The notes under the pieces are model-generated. The model worked only from the letters and a program-made list of their open reading frames with translations. It was not told where the DNA came from and searched no databases. The position numbers were made by a program, and so were the translations under genes. This document shows positions 279-25,255 of a stretch of 26,824 nucleotides of DNA, in pieces. The DNA is from a virus: positions 1 through 26,824 of the IMG/VR virus record IMGVR_UViG_3300020411_001140; one strand, 5' to 3'. The stretch's first letter is position 1. The number at the start of each line of letters is the position of its first letter.

Positions 279-362
279 TCACAGGACGTAGTTTATGAAT
301 CCTGTAAGTAGGAGGGAAAGTATTACCGACTGTATCAGCCACGCCATCCAGCGTTTAGACAT
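279..362 (-). CDS. 27-residue membrane microprotein, TAATG-coupled
   Basis: An ATG at 362 overlaps the TAA stop of the upstream gene as TAATG, the classic arrangement for translational coupling. The product starts with basic and aromatic residues (MSKRWMAW) and continues as one hydrophobic stretch, residues 7-22, that could cross the membrane once; it ends NYVL. The TGA stop (281-279) lies just before the -35 box of the primase promoter, so the gene fills the space between two transcription units. I do not recognise a family. Its shape would fit a small inner-membrane protein, perhaps a lysis or superinfection factor, but nothing seen here proves this. The coupling and hydrophobicity are direct observations; the role is unknown. 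Confidence 0.5.
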   Translation of the reverse strand: MSKRWMAWLIQSVILSLLLTGFINYVL

Positions 363-709
363 TATGTTGCCTTCGTTTGTCCAGAACCTTGTTTTAGTTT
401 ATCGACAGCTTTTGCTGTCTGTTGTCTTATTTTGTCCACACCAACTCTCGCCTTGTCCTTCAATGCGGAGATTTGTTGTGCTCTCTTTTCTCTATCCCTA
501 TCTTGTTGTGCCTGATTCTTGGCGGCGATGTCGTTCACTTTCTTCTTGAGTGCGGCACCACCCTTCTTTAACAGGTTCTTAGCACCACTCTTGATAGCGG
601 AACCAGCCTTCTTCGCGAAGTTACTCACACCCTTCTTCGCACTATCGATACCCTTTTTCATAAACTTGGGCATCTCATCTAGTTCGTGATACTCTTTGAA
701 GGACTTCAC
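362..709 (-). CDS. Small lysine/alanine-rich basic protein with capsid-targeting-like start
   Basis: 115 residues starting at a GTG (709) that overlaps the TGA stop of the gene before it (GTGA). The N-terminus MKSFKEYHELDE resembles the capsid-targeting leader of T4 internal proteins IPI-IPIII (MKTYQEFIAEA), including an LDE site of the (L/I)-x-E type cut by the T4 prohead protease. The rest is highly basic, with repeated K-K-G/A-x-x-x-K patterns (KKGIDSAKKG, KKAGSAIKSG, KKGGAALKKK) and a long helical second half. This composition suits a DNA-associated protein packaged in the head, which is an inference. I recognise no enzymatic domain. It ends in a TAATG junction with the 27-residue membrane microprotein. 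Confidence 0.75.
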   Translation of the reverse strand: MKSFKEYHELDEMPKFMKKGIDSAKKGVSNFAKKAGSAIKSGAKNLLKKGGAALKKKVNDIAAKNQAQQDRDREKRAQQISALKDKARVGVDKIRQQTAKAVDKLKQGSGQTKAT

Positions 710-930
710 GATATCTTTCCGAAAATGGGACGTTTGGCGTCCACTCCGTATTTCTTGAGTTTGGACATCAGTTCGGATTTATTCTTCGCTTCATCATCCC
801 AGTTACCAGCGTCGATGTAGTATTTGTTCTGCATCTTGTAGACCTGAAGTTCGAATTCAGGGTCATCTGGTTGTTCAAACGAAGCGATATGTCCTCGATT
901 CATTTCACTGAGTTCTTTGAAAGACTTCAT
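706..930 (-). CDS. 74-residue hypothetical protein with capsid-targeting-like start
   Basis: The start is placed at the ATG at 930, which overlaps the TGA of the upstream gene (ATGA). The frame stays open upstream to 1014, but that stretch overlaps the preceding gene. From 930 the protein begins MKSFKELSEMN, nearly identical to the start of the next gene (MKSFKEYHELDE), and contains an LSE site. The body is mixed charged (KMQNKYYIDAGNWDDEAKNKSELMSKLKK would be its core, given here in part: YYIDAGNWDDEAKNK) and looks like one small alpha/beta domain. Possibly a head-packaged internal protein. Function unknown. Confidence 0.65.
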   Translation of the reverse strand: MKSFKELSEMNRGHIASFEQPDDPEFELQVYKMQNKYYIDAGNWDDEAKNKSELMSKLKKYGVDAKRPIFGKIS

Positions 931-1241
931 TGTGAGGCTCCGATGTATGCGACGTATGTTTGAAATAGAGTCATAGCAAAAGTAAGTGTCAATAAAATAC
1001 CAGTCATCATCCACTTCCAGCGGTTGAGTCGGTCAAGTTCTTTCCACGTGTTCTCTACATCCTCGTTCATCTCTTCCCTGAGTTTGGATAGTCTGAGATG
1101 TAGTTCTTTGAAGTCCGTGACATTCTGTAACACGTGTTTTTCGAATGAGGAATGTATGTGGTCAACCTTGACCTTAACGACCTCAACTTCTGTTATTGCT
1201 TCTCTCACCCTGTCTCCCGGCACTAACTTATCTGCTTCCAT
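927..1241 (-). CDS. Coiled-coil protein with C-terminal membrane segment
   Basis: 104 residues from the ATG at 1241, chosen because AGGAG lies eight bases before it; the earlier in-frame start at 1265 has no such site. The middle (about residues 25-75) is a charged heptad-like helix (FEKHVLQNVTDFKELHLRL, LREEMNEDVENTWKELDRL) and the C-terminus has one hydrophobic segment (WKWMMTGILLTLTFAMTLF) followed by a short tail. The topology, a long cytoplasmic coiled coil held by a tail anchor, recurs in small phage proteins of unknown role. It overlaps the genes on both sides, so it is part of one long operon. No enzymatic motif is seen. Confidence 0.65.
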   Translation of the reverse strand: MEADKLVPGDRVREAITEVEVVKVKVDHIHSSFEKHVLQNVTDFKELHLRLSKLREEMNEDVENTWKELDRLNRWKWMMTGILLTLTFAMTLFQTYVAYIGASQ

Positions 1242-1440
1242 CTTTCCGACTCCTATATGCGGCAACTGCCATTCCTATGATTTTCTTCTTCGACTTTCCT
1301 TTAAACTGCGGTGCATCTGAATCTAAAAAATCATCGATGTAGTCTTTCTGAGTCGCGTCAGCAGATAACTTTTCGTTTAGGACGTTAAGAAGGTCTTTTC
1401 TTGCTCTCTCCCTTAGAGAGAGCAAATAGTAGGTTCTCAT
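1228..1440 (-). CDS. 70-residue hypothetical protein (DAPQFKGKSKKK motif)
   Basis: Starts at the ATG at 1440 that overlaps the stop of the upstream gene (ATGA). The sequence is charged and helical, with a C-terminal stretch DAPQFKGKSKKKIIGMAVA. That pattern recalls small proteins seen in other marine T4-like phages, from memory and without a named function. The N-terminus MRTYYLLSLRERAR has some likeness to the capsid-targeting leaders nearby (an LRE site at residues 9-11). Codons 6-14 are written as a perfect 10-bp inverted repeat (1401-1425), which may control its translation. Confidence 0.6.
   Translation of the reverse strand: MRTYYLLSLRERARKDLLNVLNEKLSADATQKDYIDDFLDSDAPQFKGKSKKKIIGMAVAAYRSRKDGSR
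1401..1425 (-). promoter_or_regulatory. Perfect 10-bp stem-loop inside the start of a small gene
   Basis: The arms 1401-1410 and 1416-1425 are exact reverse complements (TTGCTCTCTC / GAGAGAGCAA), with a five-base loop reading TAAGG on the minus strand. It begins 15 bases after the start codon at 1440, inside the ribosome footprint, and the loop looks like a Shine-Dalgarno core. A role in translation control or mRNA processing is inferred. There is no U-tract, so it is not a terminator. Confidence 0.5.
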
Positions 1441-2384
1441 TTCTTAAATGATTCCTTTGTAGCCTGTCTTAATTTTTCTTTGAGTTTTGCAAGTCTGGAC
1501 TCGATACGTTTACGTGTCTCTTTGAACTGTTTGGTTCTTCCGTCCACACTTACCGATAGTTCTGAACATTTACACTGTTCTTCGATGTAGTCAAGTATTT
1601 CGTCAACGTCCATCGACTCCCATGCTCTCTGTGCCTTTTTGGCTGCAGCTGGGTTGTCTGGTGCAACAGTGGTATTCAACCAGTCTATCCAGTCTGACTT
1701 CTTTTTGAACTTCTTAGGATTCGATTTAGCCAAGTCGGAAATAGCTTTCCAGTCGATACTATCCCACGCACCTTCTTCAACATCTTCTTCAGATATCTCA
1801 ACCTCTTGTTGGCGACGAACCTGAGAATGACCCATAGGGATCGCACCTTTGGTTTCTTTATCGGTAATGATGCCCTTCGCCCCCATTTTGTTAATACGTT
1901 GAAGGAACCCTTCTGCCTGGTCTCTCGTGGAGAAGTATACCTGGCTTATCGGTCCTTTCTTTGTAGCGGCGTATTTGACATAAACACCACCAGTCTCTTT
2001 AGCTTCGACTAGCTCAGGTTCAACTTCTTCGTAGTTTACTGTCTGTTTTATTTGGGCTTCTTTTGTGTCCATACGCGATGACATCTTGTCCCTTACGGAC
2101 TTGTCTTTGATGACATCTTGCATCTTCTTCAACTTCTTAGCCTCTGGTGGGACGGACGAATCTTCTGGGTAGGCGTCTTTTTCTACAGAGGACTTCCCAC
2201 CCTCGTCATCGTGCTTTTTTAGCAGTTTTTCGTCACGATGTCCTGAGTCATGAACCTTCTTGTCAGAGACAGGAGATTCCTTAACCAGTTTTGACATAGG
2301 TGTCAACATGGGATGGTTAGCTATTCCCTCTGGTAGTTCCTGTGAGTTTTCTTCTAACTCTTTTAGTGTTTGGTATGTTCTCAT
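1437..2384 (-). CDS. Virion-associated-like protein with protease-type cleavage sites
   Basis: 315 residues, ATG at 2384 overlapping the stop of the membrane protein upstream. The N-terminus MRTYQTLKELEENSQE resembles the T4 capsid-targeting leader, with LEE and LPE sites. Residues 20-120 are a charged, probably disordered linker. At L125-V-E-A128 there is an (L/I)-x-E|A site like those cut by the T4 prohead protease, directly before a compact region (TGGVYVKYAATKKGPISQVY) that looks folded. A second small helical region (GAWDSIDWKAISDLAKSNP) follows, and the last 40 residues are a basic helix. No catalytic motif is recognised. It is probably a structural or internal head protein; the cleavage is inferred. 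Confidence 0.6.
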   Translation of the reverse strand: MRTYQTLKELEENSQELPEGIANHPMLTPMSKLVKESPVSDKKVHDSGHRDEKLLKKHDDEGGKSSVEKDAYPEDSSVPPEAKKLKKMQDVIKDKSVRDKMSSRMDTKEAQIKQTVNYEEVEPELVEAKETGGVYVKYAATKKGPISQVYFSTRDQAEGFLQRINKMGAKGIITDKETKGAIPMGHSQVRRQQEVEISEEDVEEGAWDSIDWKAISDLAKSNPKKFKKKSDWIDWLNTTVAPDNPAAAKKAQRAWESMDVDEILDYIEEQCKCSELSVSVDGRTKQFKETRKRIESRLAKLKEKLRQATKESFKK

Positions 2385-2773
2385 TTTTTACCTTCATCTC
2401 CTGTGTCAGCTTTGAACCAGTAATCACTTATCTTGGTAAAGGTGGCGAGAAACCCACCGACCAATATATTTAACAGGTCACGAAATGCATCTGTGATCTG
2501 GAAGAAAAATAGTATCGTGATTATCATAATAAAAATACCGATCTGGGTCAATGACAGTGTAAACCTAGCGACAAATTGTCTTCGTCTACGTGACTCTTCC
2601 AGTTCGGCCTCGTGTACAATTAAGTCTGGGGGAACACCCCTGTCAATAGCGTCGGCTATCTCATCTAACTGTGTATGTGGATTGGTCGACGCCGTTTGTA
2701 TTTCACTCGCCTCAGCCATGTTGTCCTTATAATCATTACTGTTCAGTGGTTTGTTCAGGTCCAATGTCGACAT
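2381..2773 (-). CDS. Small membrane protein, two hydrophobic segments
   Basis: 130 residues. The first 65 are polar and acidic, then RRRRQF leads into a strong membrane helix (LTQIGIFIMIITILFFF, about residues 74-92) and a second weaker one (LLNILVGGFLATFTKI), ending SDYWFKADTGDEGKK. A basic patch before the first helix predicts a cytoplasmic N-terminus. The size, the two helices and the charged tail are compatible with a holin-like or anchoring protein, but no family is recognised and holin genes are usually shorter. It overlaps both neighbours, so it is translated from the same message as the virion-like genes around it. Confidence 0.6.
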   Translation of the reverse strand: MSTLDLNKPLNSNDYKDNMAEASEIQTASTNPHTQLDEIADAIDRGVPPDLIVHEAELEESRRRRQFVARFTLSLTQIGIFIMIITILFFFQITDAFRDLLNILVGGFLATFTKISDYWFKADTGDEGKK

Positions 2774-4910
2774 AATAATGTTCTTTCAAACTACTATTCA
2801 TTTGTCCGAACCTCAAGTATTGCATGTCTTCGGACTTCGAATTTTTCACAATGATTGGCCTATCGGGATATTTCTTCCCATACTCTATAATTTTACTTAC
2901 ACCTTTACTCTCACCAACGACTTTATTCCATCGTTGATATTTTTCTCTTCCCCATTTACACTGGTCGTATACTTCTGGGGATACAACAAAAATAGGTGTT
3001 CCTGTATCTTCTACAGACTCTTTCATCAAGGCGAACATTTTTGATGCACCACCACCGATGACTCTGTTACCAAGAACTGCGTCTTTCCAGTTTTCACCTG
3101 TATGTTTCTTCCATACCTTCATCAAAGGTTTTGCCTGTTTGGAAGGAAATGCAAACTGGTCAGACTTCTTATTGTATTCTATGTCACCATACTTTTTGTG
3201 TCGTATGATGATGTCATCCATCTTACCGAAAACCTCGCCTGGTATTCTCAGTTTCTTGACCATCTGTTCTATCTTGTCTCTGTCAAGACCTGTCCTGTTA
3301 GCACCGATACCACCATAAGCACTCATTGGTGCCTCACTCAAGTCTTCTTTGAGTTTCTTGACCCAACTTGGATTGATTTTCTGTTTCTTCATGTATTGAA
3401 CAACTCGTTGTGAACCCAAGAAATGTTTGATAGTAGGTCTACAGTCAGCCATCTTACCATCTTCTTTTTCTATCTGGTCTATCTGGTCGAACAGTGAGTC
3501 ATCACCGATGTATTGATAAATGACTTTTGCCGCGTCCTTGGCTGGAATAGGTCGTTGGAATAACTTTTGTATTGCCGCTACGTCCTCTTTGGAGTCAGGT
3601 AATGCCCAAGTTCCTTCTGTTATCATTGGAAGACCTTGTGCCCTATCCTCGACATACATATTCAACTCAAACTTACCACTGTCCATTCCATAGATTTGAA
3701 CGTGGAGTCTCTTACGAGTTGGTTTACCAGATGGGTATTCATATCCACCTAATGAGTAAGAGTTGGTCTTACCCTTCGATGGTTTCTTTGGACCCATGTT
3801 GACTTTCTGGAACCACTCTTCTGCATCCACTTCAAACTTATGTTTTTTGAGTGCGTGGTTTAGAGCTACCTCAAACGCCTTGGACATAGTCGGATGGTAG
3901 ACTTCGTAGTCACTACCTTTCTTTGCCTCTTTGAGGTCTTCTCCATCTACGTCTTTCGCTCTCTCTTTCTTACTTATGGCGATCGCGGCTTGTTGTTTTG
4001 GGTTTGCAGCCTCGTTATAGTCTTCTTCAGTCATGATGGTTGTTTCTGTCAGACTGAGAGTTTCTGATATCATGTTTCTCGCAAATGCATCGAGACATTC
4101 TACCAAATGTAAATATTCGTCTTCTGTGAACTCTTCTACAACGAGACCAAAGTTCGCACAGAACTCATTGACTTCGTCAAAGGCCATCTGAGCATATTCC
4201 TCAGACTCAAATAGAAGATTCAGAGAATTGTCAACTGATTCTGTCTTCATATCTTTCTTCCTCTTGAATGGTGGGAACTGGTCTGTTCCTTTTATGGCTC
4301 CAGTACCGACAGCATTGGTTGGTGTTTCCTCTAAAGGTTTCTCACCGATAAGTGAGTGAACGAAAGCCTTTAGGTTGTTCTTTTCTAGATATTCGTCATC
4401 CATACCTGCCTTCTCCATTTCCTTTCGAAAATCATCTGGGTCCATTTTTGACTTGTCCCACATATCAGACAACTTCTTGAGAAGTGCCTCGTTGGTTTTA
4501 TCATCAACCGCTGCTTCATACAGGGCCTGTAGGACATCTTCTGTTAACCAATCTGGAAGGTGGTCAACATTACTGTAATGTTCGAATGACTCCGATAGAT
4601 ACTTTGGGTCATCCAACCTTTCGGTTTCTTCTTTCATCAATAACGCAGTTGCGGCCGCAACACCAGCAATCATAGAGCCACCGCCAGGGATGAAGGACAT
4701 CAACTTCTTGATATTCCAGATAACCCTATCAAGAAGAGTATATGCCTTTTTCTCTTCTTCGGTCTCAAGTTCTTTCATCTTCTTGAGTACCTTACCCTTT
4801 TTGTCTATGATGCCTAGTTTAAATGCTTTCGTCTTCTCGAACGGCGTCGCCATCTTCTTGATGAAGAAGAATGCCGTTGCTATATTGAAAGCCCCTGTCA
4901 TCAGTCCCAT
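2736..4910 (-). CDS. Large mosaic virion-like protein, possible polyprotein
   Basis: 724 residues with several apparent modules. The N-terminus, after the start MGLMTGAF, carries a block (TPFEKTKAFKLGIIDKKGK, then a helix and SFIPGGGSMIAGVAAATAL) that I remember from large structural proteins of marine T4-like phages. Acidic linkers follow. Two segments start right after (L/I)-x-E|A sites: D-L-K-E328|A-K-K-G-S-D and D-L-S-E526|A-P-M-S-A-Y, giving two C-terminal pieces of about 198 residues each. The first contains SYSLGGYEYPSGKPTRKRL, the second AYGGIGANRTGLDRDKI. This spacing suggests a precursor cut by a prohead-type protease, an inference. The start at 4910 lies 92 bases inside the upstream gene, in another frame. 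Confidence 0.7.
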   Translation of the reverse strand: MGLMTGAFNIATAFFFIKKMATPFEKTKAFKLGIIDKKGKVLKKMKELETEEEKKAYTLLDRVIWNIKKLMSFIPGGGSMIAGVAAATALLMKEETERLDDPKYLSESFEHYSNVDHLPDWLTEDVLQALYEAAVDDKTNEALLKKLSDMWDKSKMDPDDFRKEMEKAGMDDEYLEKNNLKAFVHSLIGEKPLEETPTNAVGTGAIKGTDQFPPFKRKKDMKTESVDNSLNLLFESEEYAQMAFDEVNEFCANFGLVVEEFTEDEYLHLVECLDAFARNMISETLSLTETTIMTEEDYNEAANPKQQAAIAISKKERAKDVDGEDLKEAKKGSDYEVYHPTMSKAFEVALNHALKKHKFEVDAEEWFQKVNMGPKKPSKGKTNSYSLGGYEYPSGKPTRKRLHVQIYGMDSGKFELNMYVEDRAQGLPMITEGTWALPDSKEDVAAIQKLFQRPIPAKDAAKVIYQYIGDDSLFDQIDQIEKEDGKMADCRPTIKHFLGSQRVVQYMKKQKINPSWVKKLKEDLSEAPMSAYGGIGANRTGLDRDKIEQMVKKLRIPGEVFGKMDDIIIRHKKYGDIEYNKKSDQFAFPSKQAKPLMKVWKKHTGENWKDAVLGNRVIGGGASKMFALMKESVEDTGTPIFVVSPEVYDQCKWGREKYQRWNKVVGESKGVSKIIEYGKKYPDRPIIVKNSKSEDMQYLRFGQMNSSLKEHYYVDIGPEQTTEQ

Positions 4911-5307
4911 AGAGTTCCCTTAGTACAACTTCTTTTGCGTTATCTTCGATTTGTATATTACCTACATTTATGTTCTGACCATTGACACCCAAAACTTTTC
5001 TGGGACATCTGTTTGCCAGTAACAAAAATATCTTCAGTAGAGACCAGTTGTCAGGTGGTATTTTAAAAAATAACAACCTCTGTGCGGCCTCTAGTCTGAA
5101 GACATTGAAGTACATAATGACATGGTTCAATAACAGTCGGGACTTTAACTCTCCCTTCTTTCTGTAGTTATTGAAATGTCTATTAATGTATTTTGTTTTA
5201 TTCACATCCTGCTGGAACTCTCTGGTTGTTGTATGCTCCTTCATTATGTAATGTTGGAATGCAAACAACAACCAGTTTTCGTTCGTCAGGTTCTCAAAAC
5301 GAACCAC
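4819..5307 (-). CDS. Conserved phage hypothetical (MVRFENLTNENWLLFA family)
   Basis: 162 residues from a GTG at 5307, five bases after the stop of the fibre-like gene. The order of conserved blocks (RFENLTNENWLLFA, YINRHFNNYRKKGELK, LLNHVIMYFNVFRLEAA, LLFFKIPPDNWSLLK, then a C-terminal IEDNAKEVVLREL) matches, from memory, a conserved hypothetical family of marine T4-like phages whose members end near LREL or LREI. Here the frame runs 31 codons further and overlaps the next gene by 92 bases, so the tail may be overprinted or reflect a sequence error near 4915. The protein looks all-helical and soluble. Function unknown. Confidence 0.7.
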   Translation of the reverse strand: MVRFENLTNENWLLFAFQHYIMKEHTTTREFQQDVNKTKYINRHFNNYRKKGELKSRLLLNHVIMYFNVFRLEAAQRLLFFKIPPDNWSLLKIFLLLANRCPRKVLGVNGQNINVGNIQIEDNAKEVVLRELYGTDDRGFQYSNGILLHQEDGDAVREDESI

Positions 5308-5312
5308 AATAA

Positions 5313-7028
5313 TTAATAGTCTGGGTCAGTCCAGTTCTGGTCCACATCGTATGTGTCGTGAATGAACTTCTCACCTGTCAGTTCTTCCAACTTCTGAATC
5401 ACTGAAATCATATTAATGTATCGGCGACGGCTCTTTGCACCATCATACTCGTTGAAACACCACTCACCACGACTGTTGTGAGGTGAAATCTGTGTCTCTG
5501 TTCCACCACCTGCGGCAGAACCAGATGAGTTCATTACGAACATCTGAGCCAAACCAGAAAGTTGTTTAGCGTAAATGTAAGCCTGGTTGTGGTTGGCCAA
5601 TGTAGCTACGATACCTCCGTCAGGTTTTGTACCTTCAGTGTTCATAATCACTGTAGTGTCAACTTCTGACGAACCAGCACCTACACCTGTATCAACCGAG
5701 CCTGGTCCGATGATGAAAGGTGCATTTTCGATACGAATCTTTGAGATGCCGTTTGGTCTGTAGTAGTGAAGACCTGCACGTCTTGCTGATACACCAGTAC
5801 CAGTCTCAGGAGTGTGCATCGAAACGTTGGAGTTGAAGTGAGCTCCGATAGTTGAACTTGAGTTCAATGTCAGAACACCATTTGTTCCATCCCAGTTCAG
5901 GTTCTCACCTGCAGCTGCGGTATAGAAATAAGCATCTGATGCTTCAGTGTCTGCACCGACTGACAACGCTCCGTCAATGTGAACTCCGTCTGTAGAGTTA
6001 ACAATAAACTTAGCCTTGTTGGTTCCAGCAATCCACTGTATCATTCCGTTCGCTAAACCACTCTTACCTGCGGCGGCCGTACCATGAATGGTTGTATTGA
6101 AACCAATCTGTTCTTGACCGACAACGACAACTCCGTTAGCGTTTGTCTCACCATTGACATACATCTTGGACTCTGTTGCCTTCATGATGACGTTACCAGA
6201 CGCGAAGTGGAATACAGCGTCGTGTTGAGCTGCAAGGTCTCCGTGTGTGAATGCACCATGTGACTGAGTCGCGGCGTTGATAGTGAACAAACTGTTCTGT
6301 GTATCCCATGATACGAACTTATCAGCGGCGTTACCCATGATTTTGACATCTGAACCAGTAGTAGAGTTACCCAACATTGTAGGTCCGTCAACTACGAGAG
6401 CACCACTTGAGTTAGCGACTGTCTGAGCCTTAGTGACTGTCAATGTTCCGACTGACTTGTCAAAACGTACCGATGGGTTGGTTGAACCAGTGGCCCAAAC
6501 GAATACATCCTGTCCAGAAGTCATGTCACCAAAGTGAACATTACCTTGTAGGAATGTGGTGTCAGCGTTGACTGTCAACTGAGATACACCATCAAAGACG
6601 ATGTTTGCTGTTGGTGACTCAAACTGAGCACTTTGTCCGTTGGTTGAGTTACCTACGATGAGGTTTGCACTGGAAAGGTTAGCTTCTCCGTACAGGTTAT
6701 ACGTTCCATAGTGATTCATGACTAGGGAAGTATTGATTGTATTATCACCTATGTCTAACGACCTTGTGAATGCTGTGTTACCATTGATGGTAAAAGTATC
6801 GTTAGCGGCGGTCCAAGATACATTTCCCTGTTGATTCTGCCCGTAAATAGTTACGTTCTGTCCAGTCGTGGAATTTCCGATGGTCAGGTCACTGGGAATG
6901 TAGTTAAAAAAGTTAGCAAGAGTTATCTTGGTATTTCTTGCACTTGGGTTAAAATCGATTAAATGAAGAATGTCATCACTAGACGTAAGACTTATCTCCG
7001 TTAAATCGGTTATCTTTCTATCAGCCAT
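5313..7028 (-). CDS. Repeat-rich fibre/appendage-like virion protein
   Basis: 571 residues, ATG at 7028 with AAGGATAAA before it. After a short head (MADRKITDLTEIS) come imperfect beta-rich repeats marked by GNSTTGQ (51-57), GNSTNGQ (126-132), GDMTSGQ (167-173) and GNSTTGS (220-226), each followed by strands such as GNVSWTAANDTFTING. This glycine/asparagine/threonine-rich pattern is typical of trimeric phage fibres. The C-terminus (about 500-550) has SPHNSRGEWCFNEYDG and a helix YINMISVIQKLEELTGE, a tail seen on other marine phage fibre-like proteins where it may help trimerise. A neck, tail or whisker-type appendage is likely; the receptor is unknown. Confidence 0.75.
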   Translation of the reverse strand: MADRKITDLTEISLTSSDDILHLIDFNPSARNTKITLANFFNYIPSDLTIGNSTTGQNVTIYGQNQQGNVSWTAANDTFTINGNTAFTRSLDIGDNTINTSLVMNHYGTYNLYGEANLSSANLIVGNSTNGQSAQFESPTANIVFDGVSQLTVNADTTFLQGNVHFGDMTSGQDVFVWATGSTNPSVRFDKSVGTLTVTKAQTVANSSGALVVDGPTMLGNSTTGSDVKIMGNAADKFVSWDTQNSLFTINAATQSHGAFTHGDLAAQHDAVFHFASGNVIMKATESKMYVNGETNANGVVVVGQEQIGFNTTIHGTAAAGKSGLANGMIQWIAGTNKAKFIVNSTDGVHIDGALSVGADTEASDAYFYTAAAGENLNWDGTNGVLTLNSSSTIGAHFNSNVSMHTPETGTGVSARRAGLHYYRPNGISKIRIENAPFIIGPGSVDTGVGAGSSEVDTTVIMNTEGTKPDGGIVATLANHNQAYIYAKQLSGLAQMFVMNSSGSAAGGGTETQISPHNSRGEWCFNEYDGAKSRRRYINMISVIQKLEELTGEKFIHDTYDVDQNWTDPDY

Positions 7029-7069
7029 TTTATCCTTGACTAGAGTTTATTATCATATCACGAAACGTT

Positions 7070-7990
7070 TCACTGTTCACGAATCACGTTTGGTCTGTAA
7101 TAGTCCAAATTCTGACCCATGTTCATTCCATAGGTATCACCCTTGGAATAGTCAGTATCACTGAAGTCTAAGTTTCCTTTTGAGTCAGTGGATACCTGAA
7201 CTCCATAGAGATGCTCGATGGTTTGGATACTTTGTTCCAAGTTCATACCCGCAGCCTTGTAGAGTTCTAAAAGTCTGTAAATGTGCAACTGAGAGATATC
7301 TGGTTTTCCGTAGATTTCAGCTGTGTCAGCGATGTTCCCATCCCACATACCTTCAGCAATCATCTTCTCTTGAATACCAAACTCTTTGTTCATTTCTTCC
7401 CAGTTGTAACTGTATCTTTCATTTAGATACGCTTGTCTTTCACGAATCATTTCCTCGAAATTATCGAAGGACTCGACTTTGACTTTCTCTTTCTTTCCAG
7501 ACATTTTTACCTTTGCTTTATCTGTCTTTGGAGTAATAGGGGTTTTCTTTCCCTGTCCCGCCATTGGTCGACCCATTGAGTCAACTGCGGGTGGAGCCTC
7601 TGCTCCTCCCGCGGCTGGTGGACCAGCTTCGGGTGGTGGTGCTTTCTCCTCTCCACCTTCTTCTGGTTTCTCTTCTTCGTCATCCGACTTTTCGTCTTCT
7701 TTCTCATCGTCTGACTTCTTGTCATCTCCACCCTCTTTGTCACCTACAGGGTCACCCTTTTCATCGTCTTTCTTTGGAGGAAATGGTGGTTTCTTTTCGT
7801 CACCCTCTTCATCTTCCTCATCTTCTTTTTCGTCTTTCTCTTCTTCAGGTGAAGCCTTGGCTTTTTCGGCCTTGAGTTTAGCACGTTCCTCAGACTTCTT
7901 CTCCTTGAGACGCATGGCCCTGACTTCTTCCTTATGAGTAGCATGGACCATGTCAACAATTTTGTGTGCTAGGTCAGCATATTTGGACAT
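7070..7990 (-). CDS. Acidic low-complexity protein
   Basis: 306 residues, ATG at 7990 with AAGGAAACT before it, overlapping the upstream gene by 17 bases. A helical head (MSKYADLAHKIVDMVHATHK) leads into about 120 residues made almost entirely of E, D, K, G and P (roughly 35-155), then a folded C-terminal region of about 130 residues (FDNFEEMIRERQAYLNERY and further helices, ending in a tyrosine- and asparagine-rich tail). No enzyme motif is seen. The design, a structured end with a long polyampholyte linker, fits a scaffold, head-core or appendage-connecting protein, especially beside the fibre-like gene. The antisense strand carries long serine-rich open frames here, which are artefacts of the biased composition. 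Confidence 0.65.
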   Translation of the reverse strand: MSKYADLAHKIVDMVHATHKEEVRAMRLKEKKSEERAKLKAEKAKASPEEEKDEKEDEEDEEGDEKKPPFPPKKDDEKGDPVGDKEGGDDKKSDDEKEDEKSDDEEEKPEEGGEEKAPPPEAGPPAAGGAEAPPAVDSMGRPMAGQGKKTPITPKTDKAKVKMSGKKEKVKVESFDNFEEMIRERQAYLNERYSYNWEEMNKEFGIQEKMIAEGMWDGNIADTAEIYGKPDISQLHIYRLLELYKAAGMNLEQSIQTIEHLYGVQVSTDSKGNLDFSDTDYSKGDTYGMNMGQNLDYYRPNVIREQ

Positions 7991-10019
7991 AGTTTCCTTG
8001 TGGTAAATATTCTTCGTTTCGAATTCTTGGGTCTACAATGAAACCATTTTGTTTCATCCACTCAGTACCCATAAGGACTGGATAACCCATATGTGACCTG
8101 TCGGAAAGTGAAAAGTTGACTTTGTAGGTCTTTCCTCTGAAGTTCATAGGAATTTCAACGACTGGTCTTTTCTCCTTGTCAGTTCCTACTGCACCCATAA
8201 CAACCTCATAGTCCTTGATAGGAAAGGTTGCCAGTTTACCTGTGTCACCGACTTTAAAAATAGCTTTAGACTTCGTGAGTTTTAGGTCACGAGCGTCAAG
8301 TGTTGCTGAACCTGAGTTTCCTGTATCCATCTTACACATCATCTCACCCCAAGCAAAACTCACAGGTTCAATGACTCCAATTGGAACGGACTGTTTGGTC
8401 CAGTTTTCTTTTTCAGAATAGAACTCATACAGAATGTCGATGAGTTGTTTTCCGTCAATATCTTCTTTCTCTTGGATGTCATAATATTTAGCTGACACCC
8501 CAGGCGAACCATTTACTTCAAGTACAGTCAGTTCACCTTTTCTGTTTACAGCGATATCAACTCCTGAGAGTCTCATACCTATCGCTCTTGTGGCCTCCTC
8601 AGCAAGTTCGTTCATTGCTGGTGAGGGTTTGTAAGCTTGAAAGTCTCCTCCCAAGTCAACGTTGGTTCGAAAGTCTCCCTTCGCCATCGTTCTCTTGAGA
8701 CCAAACCTTGCCTTACCTTCGTGACAAATGACACGAACATCATACTTGAGGTCAAAGAACTCTTGAGCAATGAGTTGAGCATCTGTCTGTTTAGAGAAAG
8801 CGTCAACCACTCCTCTGAGTGATGATAGACTTTCCATCTTCATAACACCTTTACCCTTCGAACCTGTAATGGTCTTGAGCATCATTGGGAACTTTCCACC
8901 CAACTGTTCGACAACCTCATCCGTAATACCTGAATGAATGATAGCTGTTCGTGGTGTCCTAATACCTTCGGACTGTAGAATACGAGCAGTCGACAACTTG
9001 TTTCTCGCCGCGTCCATCGCCTCCATAGAGTTGAGGAATGGTACACCCGCTTGTTCAACCGCTTTTGCAACACCCATTCGACCTTCGTCCATCAGAACAG
9101 AACCAAGAGGAATTGCAAAAGTGTTTGTCGGGTCTACGGACAATGACTTGTTCTCTCCATTGTAGTTGTGTATTACCAACTGAGTATCTTCGACAAGATG
9201 AGTAAACGCCTTGTCAACATATACAATGTGAGTATTCTCGTTCTTTGCCCAATATTGTTGAGGTGTAGAGTCTTCTGGTTTTACGACACAAAGAATGAGA
9301 AACGTAGGTGTCTCTTTCTGTTCCATCAATCTTCGATAGGTAAATTTTTCCTCTACTTCTCGTGCTTCAACGACTACCTCTGTCTCTGGAAAATACTCTT
9401 CCCATTGGAACTCACTCCAGTCTTCTTTGATTTTCATAGCCTTACGTAAGGCCATGTACATCTTCTTGGCGTCGTTGTCATTCAACTTTGAAGGTACACC
9501 CTTTCGAAACTCCCCATAGTTATTATCAGTAGCAAGTGCTCTCATCTTACTCGCTGACATACCTGACACATCTTCTGCGTCTGGGTCTCTTTCACCAGCG
9601 GAGACAACCTCGAAACTAGAACCAACTGACTTGTCCTTGTCTTTGTGGTTGACATACTTTGAAAACTGAGCTCGGAACTGAGGCACCCTATCAGATCCCG
9701 CTACCATAATCAACTTAGTGTATCCCTTGTCCCGCAGGTCATAAGCCACATCGAACGCAGTCCTTGCATCATCCTTCTGGACGAGTTTTCCAAATGCCTT
9801 CTTGGCAATTGCGACTTTTAGTTTATATGGTAGCGGGTCTTTCTTGGGATTTTCTGAGTGTGAAAGATAAAGAAATGGGTCGGCATTATTCTTCTTGGCG
9901 ACTTTTTGTATCGTCTGTACAAGAAGTTCGTGACCAGTTGTTGGAGGGTTTAGACGGCCGAAAGCGAATACAGCCGTCTTACCTGTATCTTCTCTGAGTT
10001 GAAAGAATGACTTGGCCAA
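7974..10019 (-). CDS. Three-domain fusion: nucleotidyltransferase, ATP-grasp ligase, RimB-like aspartic protease
   Basis: 681 residues if started at the TTG at 10019, which has AGGTGG seven bases upstream; a GTG at 10031 is the alternative (numbers below use it). Residues 1-14 (AKSFFQLRED) look like a capsid-targeting leader. Domain 1 (about 18-200) is a cytidylyltransferase-fold enzyme: GRLNPPTTGHE with the TxGH motif (31-34) and MSASKMR (158-164), as in NMN or phosphopantetheine adenylyltransferases. Domain 2 (about 240-540) is an ATP-grasp ligase of the RimK type: LKTITGSKGKGVMKM (385-399) and LEVNGSPG (504-511). Domain 3 (about 548-670) matches the RimB/ATP-dependent zinc protease family related to retropepsins: MDTGNSGSATLDA (568-580) and the LSDRSHMGYPVLMG block. 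Together they suggest adding and removing amino acids on a protein or peptide, plus a nucleotidyl transfer step. Confidence 0.8.
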   Translation of the reverse strand: MAKSFFQLREDTGKTAVFAFGRLNPPTTGHELLVQTIQKVAKKNNADPFLYLSHSENPKKDPLPYKLKVAIAKKAFGKLVQKDDARTAFDVAYDLRDKGYTKLIMVAGSDRVPQFRAQFSKYVNHKDKDKSVGSSFEVVSAGERDPDAEDVSGMSASKMRALATDNNYGEFRKGVPSKLNDNDAKKMYMALRKAMKIKEDWSEFQWEEYFPETEVVVEAREVEEKFTYRRLMEQKETPTFLILCVVKPEDSTPQQYWAKNENTHIVYVDKAFTHLVEDTQLVIHNYNGENKSLSVDPTNTFAIPLGSVLMDEGRMGVAKAVEQAGVPFLNSMEAMDAARNKLSTARILQSEGIRTPRTAIIHSGITDEVVEQLGGKFPMMLKTITGSKGKGVMKMESLSSLRGVVDAFSKQTDAQLIAQEFFDLKYDVRVICHEGKARFGLKRTMAKGDFRTNVDLGGDFQAYKPSPAMNELAEEATRAIGMRLSGVDIAVNRKGELTVLEVNGSPGVSAKYYDIQEKEDIDGKQLIDILYEFYSEKENWTKQSVPIGVIEPVSFAWGEMMCKMDTGNSGSATLDARDLKLTKSKAIFKVGDTGKLATFPIKDYEVVMGAVGTDKEKRPVVEIPMNFRGKTYKVNFSLSDRSHMGYPVLMGTEWMKQNGFIVDPRIRNEEYLPQGNYVQIC

Positions 10020-10020
10020 A

Positions 10021-10968
10021 TTACTTCCCACCTATAGTCATTCCACCATTTTTCTTAGGACGGACTGTAGTTACTGAACCTTTGCCAGCAACTCCACCTT
10101 TTCCACCCCAACCTTCTTGTTTTTCTTTGGCGGCCTCTTCCCAGTATTTCTGAGCGTTGACTGCTCCTTTTTCCTGAGCGGCACGAACAGCCTCTTCGAA
10201 AGTCATGTTCTCTTTGACCTGTTCGTCTTCACCTTTATTCTTTTTGATGGACTTGTGTGTAGACTTCTTCATCGTGACTGGGTGAGTCTTACCACCAATT
10301 TTTACACTGTCCTTGCCTTGAGAAGCGGCGTGAGCGATGGCACCCATAAAGGATTCCTCGTCCTTTGCACTCTTCTTGGCTTCGGAAATGTTTTCTACTT
10401 GTTTAAGGTCGATATTCATTTCGGATTCCTCGTTGTAAACGTTGAGTAACACTTTATTCTGTGCCACGTAAGTATTAAAAACGGACTGTGGTTTGTCCTT
10501 CTTCATTGCCATTGCAATGAACCCATCTTTCTGTGCCAGTTTCTTCATCTTACCCATGTCGAACTTGGCATTCATTTCTTCTAGTTCTTGTTCTTCGACA
10601 TCATCAGCTGCTTTAGTATTGAATGGGTCAAACTTTTTACCTTTTTTAGCATCCTTCATTCTTGTCTTCAGGTCTTCCTGCTCTTGTTCTTCCTGAGCAT
10701 TAATGTTACCTTCTCCCCCATCTTGACCTTTGACTTTGTTAGACTTTCCAGTCTTATGAGCCTTGTCTTCTACGTCTTCTGGATGTTCAGGTTTCTTACC
10801 TGTTATAAACGTATCTCTATCGTCTTTTCCAGATGCGGCATGGAAGTGTTTTTCTTCGTAGTCAGAAGTCTTCTTGGAGATAGGGTGTTCTTGATGACCA
10901 CCTTTCTCGCCTGGTGTTTCTGTATACTTCTCATTCACTACGTTCTTGATCTGGTGCTCCAGTCTCAT
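10021..10968 (-). CDS. Lysine/glutamate-rich virion-associated-like protein
   Basis: 315 residues from the ATG at 10968, preferred over one at 11007 because the longer form would overlap the 54-residue ORF completely out of frame, and AGGA lies shortly upstream. It begins MRLEHQIKNVVNEKY, then a long hydrophilic, probably disordered stretch (about 15-130). A compact region follows (KMKKLAQKDGFIAMAMKKD, FNTYVAQNKVLLNVYN), then I194-S-E196|A, a prohead-protease-type site. A helical block (MGAIAHAASQGKDSVKIGG) and a glycine/lysine-rich tail end the protein. It sits directly before the three-domain fusion gene. Probably an internal head protein; no catalytic residues are seen. Confidence 0.65.
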   Translation of the reverse strand: MRLEHQIKNVVNEKYTETPGEKGGHQEHPISKKTSDYEEKHFHAASGKDDRDTFITGKKPEHPEDVEDKAHKTGKSNKVKGQDGGEGNINAQEEQEQEDLKTRMKDAKKGKKFDPFNTKAADDVEEQELEEMNAKFDMGKMKKLAQKDGFIAMAMKKDKPQSVFNTYVAQNKVLLNVYNEESEMNIDLKQVENISEAKKSAKDEESFMGAIAHAASQGKDSVKIGGKTHPVTMKKSTHKSIKKNKGEDEQVKENMTFEEAVRAAQEKGAVNAQKYWEEAAKEKQEGWGGKGGVAGKGSVTTVRPKKNGGMTIGGK

Positions 10969-11095
10969 CTTCGTCCTTCTGTGTGTATACTTGGTTGACC
11001 GCATCAATGAGTGACCTAGTCAAAGGGTCGTGATTGGTCTCGTTGGGGTTCAGTCTATTTTGTCTAGCGAACCTATTTAAAAGTGGAGTGTCCAT
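10931..11095 (-). CDS. 54-residue ORF between the ligase-like gene and the next
   Basis: An ATG at 11095 follows immediately after the TAA stop (11098-11096) of the ligase-like gene. The frame runs to a TGA at 10931 and encodes a protein beginning MDTPLLNRFARQNRLNPN, then DPLTRSLIDAVNQVYTQ and an acidic tail. Its length, its junction with the stop before it and its protein-like composition argue for a real small gene, and it fills the only unexplained space in this stretch. It overlaps the start of the next gene by 38 bases in another frame. I recognise no family; the two short helices suggest a small accessory or adaptor protein. Confidence 0.55.
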   Translation of the reverse strand: MDTPLLNRFARQNRLNPNETNHDPLTRSLIDAVNQVYTQKDEDETGAPDQERSE

Positions 11096-12352
11096 TTATC
11101 CCCAGTTCTTTATTGCGTTAAAATTATTCATACTAAACTCTAGGCGGTCAATGAGTTTGACAGCCTTACCACCAGATATTGCAACAAAACCCTCTGGGTT
11201 GGTCACCTTAAAACCTGTGTCTGTTTTGACAAAGGTATCTGTCATTCCTTTTATCTTTTCAAGTTTGTGTGTGATGAAATTCTTACAAACCTGAAATGCA
11301 CGCATAACATCAAATATCATTTTTATCTGGTCTTTGCGTTCTAGTAAAGTATCTAGGAGTAACTGCATTGCAGCTGTTTTTCTGTCTCGTGATGCCTGAG
11401 TCTTGAGTTTGTCTATCTCTTTCATGTACTTTGTCTCTACGTGTTTTATCACTCCAGCCGCCATTCTAGCGGTATCACGTATTGGTTGACCTTCTCTGAC
11501 ATTCTTATTGATATAAGCCTTCATGTCAACAGTCAGTTTGTTGTCTTCCGCGATCGCGTTCAAGACTGACTTGTCAACCTTGGTCATCAACTTTTCGATG
11601 AGAGAAATAAACCTATCAATGACTCTGGTCTCTTTCTGTGTGAAGGAGACAGTTCCACCCAAGTCACGAATGGATGCGTCTTTTATCCAACATCCTTTCG
11701 CCTTTGTCCTAGATGCATCAACTCCGAATGACGCCTTCATATCAGCCAGAGTTGGTCCACCTGTGTACTTTGTGTGGAATACAATACCCAGTTGTGCCTT
11801 CTTGATTTCAGCTTCAAGTGGTGTTCCTGAAGGAACTGCATAAACAATCGTGTTTGGTTGAAATGTGGTGTATGACTTTCCTTCGATGGTTGTCTTCTCC
11901 AAGTCTCCAGAAGTCCACATCAAGTCACCTTGCCATACTTCCTTTGGTGGAATGTTGGCCTGAGATAACAACTTGAGAGCTAGTTTCAGTTTTGGGTTGA
12001 GACCTGAACCTGAATAGTATTCGTCAACATCACCTTCTGTTTTACAAAGTTTTGGGCTTCCAGCAAAGACTCCTTTGGTCCCTACAAAGAAACGTCCATC
12101 TGATGGGTCTTTACCACAAAACACAGCTGGAGCTCCATCCCATTTCATTGTGATATCGGTTTCTCCTTTGGACTTTCCTGCGAGCATGTCTCGTAAGGCG
12201 ATGAGGAAGTCTGTTGCTGTTTTGACTCCATCAGTTCCTCCGTTAAGTACCTCATCTTCCAGATGTTCAAGATGAACGTTCTTTCCGTCTTTACCTTCAA
12301 CGAAAAACCATTTGCCGTCATCTATCTCCGTTATTTGCCTGAAACTGAACAT
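11096..12352 (-). CDS. DNA/RNA ligase-like nucleotidyltransferase (marine phage family, probably DUF6267)
   Basis: 418 residues. From memory it matches a marine T4-like phage family of unknown function (I believe DUF6267). In the sequence I see motifs of covalent nucleotidyltransferases: motif I K70-W-D-G-A-P, where the lysine would carry AMP; a motif III-like QGDLMW (141-146); motif IV E387-G-F-V; and motif V K396-A-V-K. The order and the short IV-V gap are as in RNA and DNA ligases, but about 240 residues separate III from IV, so there is a large insertion. The N-terminus MFSFRQITEIDD resembles the capsid-targeting leaders of neighbouring genes. It could be an end-repair ligase delivered with the genome; this needs proof of lysine adenylylation. 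ACAGGAG precedes the ATG. Confidence 0.7.
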   Translation of the reverse strand: MFSFRQITEIDDGKWFFVEGKDGKNVHLEHLEDEVLNGGTDGVKTATDFLIALRDMLAGKSKGETDITMKWDGAPAVFCGKDPSDGRFFVGTKGVFAGSPKLCKTEGDVDEYYSGSGLNPKLKLALKLLSQANIPPKEVWQGDLMWTSGDLEKTTIEGKSYTTFQPNTIVYAVPSGTPLEAEIKKAQLGIVFHTKYTGGPTLADMKASFGVDASRTKAKGCWIKDASIRDLGGTVSFTQKETRVIDRFISLIEKLMTKVDKSVLNAIAEDNKLTVDMKAYINKNVREGQPIRDTARMAAGVIKHVETKYMKEIDKLKTQASRDRKTAAMQLLLDTLLERKDQIKMIFDVMRAFQVCKNFITHKLEKIKGMTDTFVKTDTGFKVTNPEGFVAISGGKAVKLIDRLEFSMNNFNAIKNWG

Positions 12353-12370
12353 ATTCTCCTGTGTAGTTAT

Positions 12371-12377
12371 GTCTTAT
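12371..12377 (-). promoter_or_regulatory. T4-like late promoter motif (CTAAATA)
   Basis: The minus strand reads CCTAAATAAG here, 19 bases before the ATG of the ligase-like gene, overlapping the stop codon of the gene before it. Late promoters of T4 have TATAAATA, and CTAAATA-type versions are described for related cyanophages. As only one such motif sits clearly in front of the virion-like block, the call is tentative. Confidence 0.35.
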
Positions 12378-13153
12378 TTAGGGTCTCCTGCGACGTTCCA
12401 AAAGAGGTTGACTTTCGAAGGATTATACAGTTCCTTCATAGGTTTCCAGACCTTGGCGTCGTATTCACGGGCCGATGGGAATGGTGGTAAGTCTTCTTCT
12501 TTACAGGGTTGATTGTACTTATAGGATACTGGATGGACTGTTGCATTTCCAGCCTCTTCTTGGTCCATCTTATGTCCAGTTTGAACACAATGAAACTCAG
12601 AGTCAGGCCAAGCCATCTGTAAACCACGTGTGAGTGTACCAGATGAACCAACTGTCCATACAACTTCGGGGATGATTGGTAGGTTTCGAGCTACCTTGAT
12701 GATAGCTCCTAGTGTGATGTCATGTTCCAAACCTATCGGAACATTCATTCTTGTGGTAGGACTTTGTTCGACATACTTTTTACAGTGTGCCTTGGTGACG
12801 GATAACATACCCATCTTGACCCAAGTGATTTTACCACCCAAGTCGGAATAGTATTTTTGATGTGGTGTGGGTTCTTTCCTGTCAGCGTAAAACGAGTGTG
12901 CTATCTTTCCATACTTTCTACACAAGTATGCAAGTGAGATGTTTCCCCAACCAACGGAGTTACTCCCTCCATAACAAAACTCATCTACTGGTGTGTCACG
13001 AATCAGTTTATCAGCGAACCTGACTTTTGAACCACCTTCTTGTAGGTCATCACGAACTACAACGATTCCATCGTAGTCTACGAGAACTGGGAAAGGGTTC
13101 GGGTCTTCCCAGTCTTTGACTAGGTCGAGATAATCGTCAGGCCCAAAAAGCAT
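12374..13153 (-). CDS. PLP-dependent enzyme-like protein, fold type II
   Basis: 259 residues, ATG at 13153 with AGGATTAG before it, overlapping the methyltransferase end by 17 bases. Residues 33-46 (VRDDLQEGGSKVRF) resemble the lysine segment of the ACC deaminase/D-cysteine desulfhydrase group, with K43 as the candidate PLP lysine. GGSNSVGWGNISLAY (62-76) matches the substrate/phosphate-side loop (GGxxSNH-like), and TVGSSGTLTRGLQ (167-179) the serine/glycine-rich phosphate-binding loop. Known members have about 330-350 residues, so this is a shortened version. Possible roles are amino-acid breakdown or, given the methyltransferase next door, addition of an amino acid to a modified base as in some phage DNA hypermodification paths. 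The motifs are visible; the reaction is not. Confidence 0.6.
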   Translation of the reverse strand: MLFGPDDYLDLVKDWEDPNPFPVLVDYDGIVVVRDDLQEGGSKVRFADKLIRDTPVDEFCYGGSNSVGWGNISLAYLCRKYGKIAHSFYADRKEPTPHQKYYSDLGGKITWVKMGMLSVTKAHCKKYVEQSPTTRMNVPIGLEHDITLGAIIKVARNLPIIPEVVWTVGSSGTLTRGLQMAWPDSEFHCVQTGHKMDQEEAGNATVHPVSYKYNQPCKEEDLPPFPSAREYDAKVWKPMKELYNPSKVNLFWNVAGDPK

Positions 13154-22987: not shown

Positions 22988-23261
22988 GACGTTTCCATGC
23001 TGAAGCACCTAGGATAGCACCCATTGCAATATGAAACATCCCACCATTTCTCAATGTATAAGGTTGCCAAGGTGGTGGAATATTATGAAAACAAACAGAC
23101 TGTTCTACTCCTCTGCCGACACAATCTTCAAAGAATGCAGCAACATAGAGGTTCCACCATATTGCACCAACAACAAAATCAAATAGGCATATAGAAATGT
23201 AAACCAGTGCTAACCAGTCTCTCCAGTAAGTATGTATCGTATGGTTAACCGCGAACGCCAA
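22950..23261 (-). CDS. Small membrane protein, possible holin
   Basis: 103 residues starting at a TTG (23261) inside the PAP2 gene end; no ATG is available before residue 75. Two or three hydrophobic segments are present: WLALVYISICLFDFVVGAIW (16-35), a weaker stretch with VCFHNIPPPWQPYTL, and GGMFHIAMGAILGASAW (73-89), ending in a charged tail (KRHEEKKSKSSVSE). The pattern of an aspartate in the first helix, a GGxFH-type entry to the last helix and a charged C-terminus resembles three-helix holins of phages and gene-transfer agents. The lipase, PAP2 and M15 genes nearby support a lysis or envelope role. The call is tentative. Confidence 0.5.
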   Translation of the reverse strand: MAFAVNHTIHTYWRDWLALVYISICLFDFVVGAIWWNLYVAAFFEDCVGRGVEQSVCFHNIPPPWQPYTLRNGGMFHIAMGAILGASAWKRHEEKKSKSSVSE

Positions 23262-24165
23262 CGTCCGCCTTCACGTTCCTGACTGAACCTTTGAGTCGTG
23301 ACTTTTCTCTACGTCCTCTGTTCTTTGAGGCTGACTCAAACCCGACTATCTTTCCATTCTTGTGAGATGCATCTTTACCATCTCCATTTCCGTAAGTTCC
23401 CTTCTGTCTATTGTACTTGACCAACTCAGCCCTGTACTTGATTCTCTCTGGTGAACTTTGGAATTTCTTGTACTCAGCCTTGTAGTCTCTCTTGTAGGCC
23501 TCGTCCATGTTCATCTCTATTTTGGGATAGACCTCGTTTGCGAGTTTGACACTTGCATCATGGTCGGACGGATAGTGCCATCCTGAATAGACTCTACCCA
23601 TACCACATTCTTCCGCGGCCTTCATCAGACCTTCTTTGTGTTTTGGATACTTTTTGGTGAAGTGGTTTGCAAGAAGTCTTGACTGTAGACTGTGTCCAGA
23701 TGGATATGCTGGTGACTTCATACTGTCACTGTGTAATGGCATGAAGTCAAAGTCCATCTTCATATTGTCAGCTAGATGATAAGGTCTTGGTCTTCCAAAC
23801 TTGTTCTTGAAATGTCGAACGATACCAGAACCAACGTCCTTGATTTTGTCCATCTCTTCTTCACTATACTCAAGGTCATTTTCGTCTAGGTATTTCTTGA
23901 TAGCAAAACCAGACTCAGCGTCGTGGTCCTTGACACTCTGTTCCATCTCTGGTGTTCTTTTCTTGAACATCTTTTGCATCTCTTCCAGTTCCTTGACTGT
24001 CTCAGAACTAGAGTTGACAGATGGTTCCGCTACCTTCAATGACTTATAGTCTCCCTTGAAGTTCTTCACTGGTTTGTCTTCTACTTTCTTGTGAAGAAGA
24101 GCGTCAACATCGTTCTCGTTTTTATATTGTTCTAAGATGAAATTACAGAATGACTTAAAACTCAT
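23245..24165 (-). CDS. PAP2-family phosphatase with capsid-targeting-like start
   Basis: 306 residues. All three PAP2 motifs are seen: K120-x6-R127-P128 (KNKFGRPRP), P155-S-G-H158, and G190-R-x5-H197-x3-D201 (GRVYSGWHYPSD), giving the expected catalytic histidines. No membrane helices, so this is a soluble enzyme of the acid-phosphatase/haloperoxidase type. The N-terminus MSFKSFCNFILEQ looks like a capsid-targeting leader with an I-L-E cut site. The tail (about 240-306) is basic (KNRGRREKSRLKGSVRN). Possible substrates are phospholipid heads, undecaprenyl or nucleotide phosphates; the sequence does not say. The ATG at 24165 overlaps the lipase stop (ATGA). Confidence 0.85.
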   Translation of the reverse strand: MSFKSFCNFILEQYKNENDVDALLHKKVEDKPVKNFKGDYKSLKVAEPSVNSSSETVKELEEMQKMFKKRTPEMEQSVKDHDAESGFAIKKYLDENDLEYSEEEMDKIKDVGSGIVRHFKNKFGRPRPYHLADNMKMDFDFMPLHSDSMKSPAYPSGHSLQSRLLANHFTKKYPKHKEGLMKAAEECGMGRVYSGWHYPSDHDASVKLANEVYPKIEMNMDEAYKRDYKAEYKKFQSSPERIKYRAELVKYNRQKGTYGNGDGKDASHKNGKIVGFESASKNRGRREKSRLKGSVRNVKADVGVRG

Positions 24166-24872: not shown

Positions 24873-25255
24873 ACCTCTAACTTCTTATTTGGTGTACTGA
24901 AGTTTTTCTTTCTCATGACTGTCTTCGCCACCAAGTCCAACATACCACCGCGATCAGGCTGAAGTACAAAAGGCATATTAACATCAGTTTGCATGTCATG
25001 AATGACCGCCTGTGCTCCCGCTCCCATTGGACTAATCTTCTTTCCGTATTTCTTGTAGGTCTGTTTGAACAACCTTATCAACTCTGCGGGTGTTATGGGT
25101 TTCTTGTTACGTTCGTCATTAACTCTATCTTTGAAGTGTTTTGTAAACTCAATGTCAAGACCTACTTTGGCAAAGAGTTTGTCAGCATACTTTTCCACAT
25201 TGTCAAGGTCACGTTGTGTAACCTCTTCATAGATGTAGTTATCAAACGTCAGCAT
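24869..25255 (-). CDS. Conserved phage protein, possible RelE/BECR-like toxin domain
   Basis: 128 residues, ATG at 25255 overlapping the iscU end. The N-terminus MLTFDNYIYEEVTQ looks like the capsid-targeting leaders of this phage. The core F-T-K-H-F-K-D-R-V-N-D-E-R-N followed by KKPITPAELIRLF and, later, MPFVLQPDRGGMLDLVAKTV has the layout of small BECR-type nucleases (a histidine/arginine helix, a helix with ITxxEL, then strands). From memory it is a common protein in marine T4-like phages with no proven role. If packaged, it could act on host RNA at infection. The toxin idea is a guess from motif layout alone. Confidence 0.6.
   Translation of the reverse strand: MLTFDNYIYEEVTQRDLDNVEKYADKLFAKVGLDIEFTKHFKDRVNDERNKKPITPAELIRLFKQTYKKYGKKISPMGAGAQAVIHDMQTDVNMPFVLQPDRGGMLDLVAKTVMRKKNFSTPNKKLEV

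Follow-up and report, generated by a model that had tools for sequence, protein, structure and literature searches.

A T4-like N-terminal leader shared by unrelated proteins of a marine myovirus resembles a capsid-targeting signal

The DNA stretch analyzed here (IMG/VR virus record IMGVR_UViG_3300020411_001140, positions 1 to 26,824; hereafter the window) is a fragment, 26.8 kb long, of the genome of a T4-like marine myovirus, with nearly every gene on the minus strand. The genes for DNA polymerase, a UvsX/RecA-like recombinase and a gp41-type helicase are followed by a gene block (362-13153) and then by the start of the primase gene. Methylophilales phage Melnitz-3 and two Synechococcus phages, S-SCSM1 and S-SZBM1, have the same polymerase-to-primase order, and most S-SCSM1 genes between helicase/mazG and primase are annotated as virion protein. 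Several otherwise unrelated proteins of the block start with a short leader that resembles the peptide sending T4 internal proteins into the prohead. The initial annotation had listed six such leaders in 362-12352; all six were located there on the minus strand, one with a GTG and one with a TTG start. It had overlooked two leader genes outside that range, 23245-24165 and 24869-25255. The eight leaders, with protein lengths in amino acids (aa), are:

674..709, minus strand: leader MKSFKEYHELDE, GTG start, of a 115-aa basic Lys/Ala-rich protein (362-709)
904..930, minus strand: short-register leader MKSFKELSE (MKSFKELSEMN) of a 74-aa protein (706-930)
1408..1440, minus strand: leader MRTYYLLSLRE (MRTYYLLSLRER) of a 70-aa protein (1228-1440), the weakest member
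2349..2384, minus strand: leader MRTYQTLKE(LEE) (MRTYQTLKELEE) of a 315-aa protein (1437-2384)
9990..10019, minus strand: leader MAKSFFQLRE ((M)AKSFFQLRED), TTG start, of a three-domain fusion (7974-10019)
12326..12352, minus strand: short-register leader MFSFRQITE (MFSFRQITEIDD) of the DUF6267 protein (11096-12352)
24130..24165, minus strand: leader MSFKSFCNFILE of a PAP2-family protein (23245-24165), outside 362-12352
25226..25255, minus strand: canonical leader MLTFDNYIYE of a 128-aa protein (24869-25255), outside 362-12352

An aromatic residue at position 4 and a hydrophobic or aromatic residue at position 7 are present in these eight genes, with the register off by one in 7974-10019 and 23245-24165. 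The most T4-like leader of the window is that of 24869-25255, which keeps the full register; its homologues start MKRFKSYIPE, MKTFSTYIFE or MKSFSTYIFE and retain F4, Y7, I8 and E10. The 1228-1440 leader is conserved in relatives L287 and L288 (MRTYYLLSLRE and MRTYQLLSIRE), the 1437-2384 leader has a counterpart in L007 and L003 (MRTYSTLKELEEN), and the fusion leader reads MSKSFFQ[LF]RE in relatives. Two observations support the TTG at 10019 as the start: an upstream AGGTGG, which resembles a ribosome-binding site, and an ATG codon at this position in L003, L004 and L005. In L287 the likely counterpart of 362-709, by position and composition, starts MKTFLEYTRD, with F4 and Y7 kept and LxE absent. 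The PAP2 leader is comparatively less supported, because PAP2 homologues were matched mainly over a widespread C-terminal segment; this segment (phrog_6437) is very common in marine phage contigs, with at least 590 related stretches. Adjoining the two outer leader genes is a class 3 lipase gene (24162-24872), whose product has an N-terminus resembling a lipoprotein signal (MRYLVVAIAFLVGSCS).

The T4 leader served as the yardstick. MKTYQEFIAEA had been quoted as the start of IPI-IPIII; this is correct for ipII and ipIII (MKTYQEFIAE/A in the T4 record, the slash marking the cut) and incorrect for ipI, which starts MKTFKEFTSTTTPVSTITEA and is recorded with its cut as MKTFKEFTSTTTPVSTITE/A. The first ten residues of IPIII are sufficient for packaging, and, according to T4 mutants, residues 4 and 7 serve targeting and residues 8 and 10 processing (PMC9026906). 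The window leaders agree with the T4 leader at these key residues. A 50-kb T4 stretch yielded ipII and ipIII only under the canonical rule. When the window alone was searched with a DNA version of the T4 leader, zero matches were obtained; the window leaders are divergent.

Every single leader is short and weak, as would be expected if the likeness of the N-termini were due to chance. A leader rule ([FY] at about position 4, then a hydrophobic residue at a distance of three, and [LIMV]xE within residues 5-14) was matched by 8 of the 33 window genes. The shuffled-sequence check that the initial annotation had called for was run: with residues 2-16 shuffled, 0.42 genes matched on average and never more than 4, and none of the 5000 shuffles reached 8. 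Internal Met positions matched the rule in 1 of 223 cases. The rule was built from the T4 leader and formulated after the window had been inspected; independent results therefore weigh more than the window shuffle. In Melnitz-3, with gene starts annotated by others, 10 of 221 genes matched (p=1.8e-5).

A DNA pattern for the canonical leader, MKxFxxF[LIMF]xEA, was then scanned across 2.9 million viral contigs and gave at least 120 stretches, with 118 usable open reading frames (ORFs). Among the matches listed, the leader stood exactly at the ORF start in 115 of the 118 ORFs, these ORFs fell into at least 35 unrelated body clusters, and a T4-type core gene was present on 88 of 120 leader contigs when compared with 12 of 49 control contigs. 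The control, a permuted pattern (same codons, other order), found 49 stretches across the entire collection, 10 of them at ORF starts. In ∼1 Mb of marine phage DNA that had not been chosen by leader, the canonical leader occurred 17 times at ORF starts and once internally; the corresponding control counts were 0 and 1, and 0 and 0. The bodies behind it include cytidylyltransferase, DUF6267, DUF192, DUF6321, GNAT acetyltransferase and a DPBB domain. One leader is thus shared by unrelated bodies and detachable from them, DUF6267 occurring with and without it. Judged from these scans, the leader is a detachable, almost exclusively N-terminal module of T4-like marine phages. A small family with the canonical leader (MK[TS]FK[QS]F[ML]SESVNISGDFNGNLY; L025 44215-44535 and L203 22311-22628) lies near terminase genes and was undetected in virions.

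The leader family is real. Given the shuffles, the ORF-start positions and the conservation of leaders in orthologues, chance is refuted at the family level and has next to no probability as a general account; it may still apply to individual weak leaders, for example that of 1228-1440.

The divergent window leaders can be compared with the canonical form through orthologues. The L211 DUF6267 protein starts MLRFKQYLAE/AKEGKNLHLEH and that of the window MFSFRQ-ITE, one residue fewer. The L211 cytidylyltransferase starts MNKTYQQFLKE/NSGKTAVYTFGR and its window counterpart, with the same body, MAKSFFQ-LRE, again one residue fewer. As read from these starts, the L211 orthologues link the divergent leaders of the window to the canonical leader. 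The short register, M-x-x-[FY]-x-x-[LI]-x-E, is common to four unrelated window proteins (those at 706, 1437, 7974 and 11096). RimK-like proteins encoded by separate genes have leaders of their own (MTQKFSQFITE in Melnitz, MKTFGAHLQE in L271); in the window the RimK-like domain is fused behind the cytidylyltransferase, under one leader. The recognizable bodies of the two largest leader proteins are:

9420..9995, minus strand: cytidylyltransferase (NMNAT-like) domain of the fusion (phrog_3041, E=9.7e-54)
8454..9008, minus strand: RimK-like ATP-grasp domain of the fusion (PF08443, E=1e-27, 97.4 bits, cut-off 21)
8025..8213, minus strand: PF05618 (Zn_protease, retropepsin-like) domain of the fusion (E=3.5e-8, 33.9 bits, cut-off 27)
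11096..12352, minus strand: DUF6267 protein with an invariant KWDGAPA motif (PF19782, E=1.2e-103, residues 25-414, full-length)

The nearest named relative of the DUF6267 protein is 44% identical. The window protein had been described as ligase-like, a putative label drawn from KWDG (motif I, KxDG), which is invariant in an alignment of 11 DUF6267 homologues; a fold search with a structure model (pLDDT 72) gave no PDB match at E<=0.001, with DNA-ligase domains among the weak hits only. Two other genes of the window were noted. The 25242-25631 gene encodes a complete NifU/IscU-like Fe-S scaffold (PF01592, E=1.4e-54), and 12374-13153 matches a PHROG annotated as threonine dehydratase (E=9.8e-31), with no Pfam match.

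The (L/I)-x-E ending of the leaders was compared with the prohead protease system. The two contigs nearest to the window each encode the protease gp21 (PF03420). One of these two has gp21 downstream of the block, past the primase, ThyX and reductase genes, together with gp22 and the capsid protein (MFLSE/AAPTN; site FLSE/A). Capsid protein propeptides, with cut sites inferred by position, end FLSE/A in Melnitz, LLTE/A in S-CREM2 and FLAE/A in S-SCSM1. In L287 a basic 114-aa protein (MGNLTFSELMEG...; 6291-6635), with a start resembling a shifted short-register leader, is encoded immediately before gp21, at about the position of gp67/gp68 in T4.

Virion proteomes of cyanophages offered a comparison with packaged proteins. 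For S-CREM2, whose virion protein table is published (PMC10665884), a strict leader rule was fixed before the genome was read. It matched 3 virion proteins when compared with 0 of 167 undetected proteins (p=0.0027): a SAM hydrolase (MKDFDSFLEE), an APH-like kinase (MKRFDAFLTE) and a cytidylyltransferase (MKNFSSFLTE). Each of the three virion proteomes (S-CREM2, S-SCSM1 and S-SZBM1) contains a cytidylyltransferase that bears the leader, and DUF6267, leaderless in these three phages, is reported in the virion of none. This within-family pair is the clearest virion contrast. S-SM1 virions also contain cytidylyltransferase (PMC3037559), the leader of which was not read here; S-SM1 was left out of the proteome comparison, since detected proteins are not marked in its annotation. 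Looser S-SCSM1 matches (MVKNYFKLMSE, MSDGYGYLVEE) are probably due to chance; both satisfy the strict rule. A virion-detected Cas9-like protein of S-CREM2 (ORF12; L021 7704-10313) has a leader-like LRFASFMAE/A at residues 17-25, followed by AERLGLVSDGHGSWYD, a stretch resembling that behind the leader of the S-SCSM1-type cytidylyltransferase; its annotated start may be too early.

Leader and detection are not one-to-one, because the small leader proteins S-SCSM1 30 and S-SZBM1 191 and 192 are undetected in virions. Their genes lie near tail and terminase genes, as would fit a real docking peptide for another partner (baseplate, tail, membrane or host) rather than for the capsid core. Such a partner would not account for the agreement of residues and register with T4 ipII/ipIII, for leaders that end in the same way as the cleavage site of the capsid protein or for leader proteins among cyanophage virion proteins, and we consider it improbable. 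It is also conceivable that the leader is a mark of genes expressed late and at a high level, and that detection in virions reflects lysate carry-over, a concern that the S-CREM2 and S-SCSM1 authors raise for their enzymes. An expression signal, however, would not be expected to produce a motif at the protein level, with its spacing fixed and a protease site, and the cytidylyltransferase recurs in three independent proteomes with the leaderless DUF6267 unreported; we consider this reading very improbable.

Several observations weigh against T4-type capsid targeting in this phage. The window, being a fragment, has no gp21, gp22 or capsid protein gene, and packaging of its proteins would be extrapolated from the proteomes of relatives. 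Those virions were CsCl-purified, and the authors allow carry-over. Taken alone, S-SCSM1 is unenriched (1/48 virion vs. 3/234, p=0.53) and S-SZBM1 little enriched (1/30 virion vs. 2/188); enrichment pooled over the three proteomes is modest (p=0.020, or 0.060 if proteins shorter than 150 aa are excluded). Several DUF6267 homologues within L008-L018 and S-SZBM1 start at the body (L008, L010, L015 and S-SZBM1 141). Residue 7 is aromatic in just two window leaders (362 and 24869). The Glu is absent from the L005 DUF6267 protein (ITR) and from the L287 probable counterpart of 362-709 (TRD), and Ala stands at P1' in no window leader.

The departures at the cut site would fit a leader that docks proteins in the prohead and is mostly retained, its L/I-x-E match being often incidental. 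F4 and the hydrophobic residue 7 are better kept than the Glu, and Asp at residue 10 in T4 blocks cutting and retains targeting (PMC9026906). The initial annotation had assigned an (L/I)-x-E site to each leader; this applies to all eight window leaders, but the site is not retained in every close relative. Its presence throughout the window, the constant Glu in cytidylyltransferase leaders of all relatives seen and the L211 endings LAE/A and LKE/N speak against targeting without cutting, which we regard as unlikely, if worth keeping in mind. Cleavage in the window lineage is less certain given the relatives without Glu and a P1' other than Ala; from the leader sequences, its probability lies between even and likely.

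These data suggest that T4-type capsid targeting, extended to enzymes, is the best explanation of the leaders, and we hold it to be quite probable. The proposal of a capsid-targeting-like leader shared by unrelated proteins is upheld: it has the T4 key residues, is modular and near-exclusively N-terminal, and occurs on cyanophage virion proteins. In the mechanism that we propose, (i) the leader would dock each protein on the prohead core (scaffold gp22) during head assembly, the docking being borrowed from T4; (ii) the docked, unrelated proteins would become enclosed in the head; and (iii) gp21 would, as in T4, cut after (L/I)-x-E, and the freed bodies would remain with the DNA and be delivered into the host. 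They might plausibly serve to take over the host early, as T4 Alt does, in a set that might comprise the nucleotidyltransferase, the RimK/PF05618 protein-modifying pair, the DUF6267 protein, the PAP2 protein and the small basic proteins. For these exact proteins we infer docking on gp22, packaging, cleavage, injection and function. By analogy with T4, the leader probably marks cargo injected with the DNA, which holds only if packaging is true.

We lean toward a wider reading for T4-like marine phages, in which a leader of 9-10 residues is a general address tag by which a large and exchangeable array of unrelated proteins, enzymes included, is loaded into the head for injection, with lineage-specific tag forms (here the short form, in four genes) co-evolving with the scaffold. 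The T4 targeting mechanism is known; the far wider and more enzymatic putative cargo and the shortened leader of the window lineage are new. In the open-access literature, closed literature being outside the search, we found no description of leader-based capsid targeting in cyanophages and only a T4 review. Cyanophage papers have repeatedly reported virion enzymes (cytidylyltransferase, kinase, SAM hydrolase, Cas9) and left packaged vs. contaminant undecided; a leader readable from the sequence would provide a sorting rule. It would also predict which of the thousands of unknown ocean-phage genes reach the host at time zero, as well as exact new N-termini that can be checked by mass spectrometry, and offers candidate tags by which proteins of choice might be brought into phage heads.

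Among known systems, the ejection proteins of giant phages such as SPN3US are similar in that many proteins are packaged and then matured by the prohead protease, which cuts their propeptides, a likeness drawn from the available parts of their descriptions rather than from sequences. T4 Alt, a packaged ADP-ribosyltransferase with a short propeptide, would be a functional analogue as a packaged enzyme for early host takeover (PMC9026906); no relation to the window bodies was found, the sequences not having been directly compared. The cyanophage virion cytidylyltransferase, APH-like kinase and SAM hydrolase (S-CREM2, S-SCSM1, S-SZBM1) share the canonical leader and presence in the virion, and the first has a homologous domain within 7974-10019. 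They differ in that the available parts of their descriptions mention no leader and in that the window domain is fused to RimK and PF05618. The T4 internal proteins share with the window a leader of ∼10 residues at the N-terminus, aromatic at position 4, hydrophobic at position 7 and ending in (L/I)-x-E, placed ahead of unrelated bodies that include a small basic protein (362-709 in the window). In contrast to T4, packaging in the window is predicted from the genes, four leaders are one residue shorter, P1' is other than Ala, and the putative cargo includes large enzymes and a three-domain fusion.

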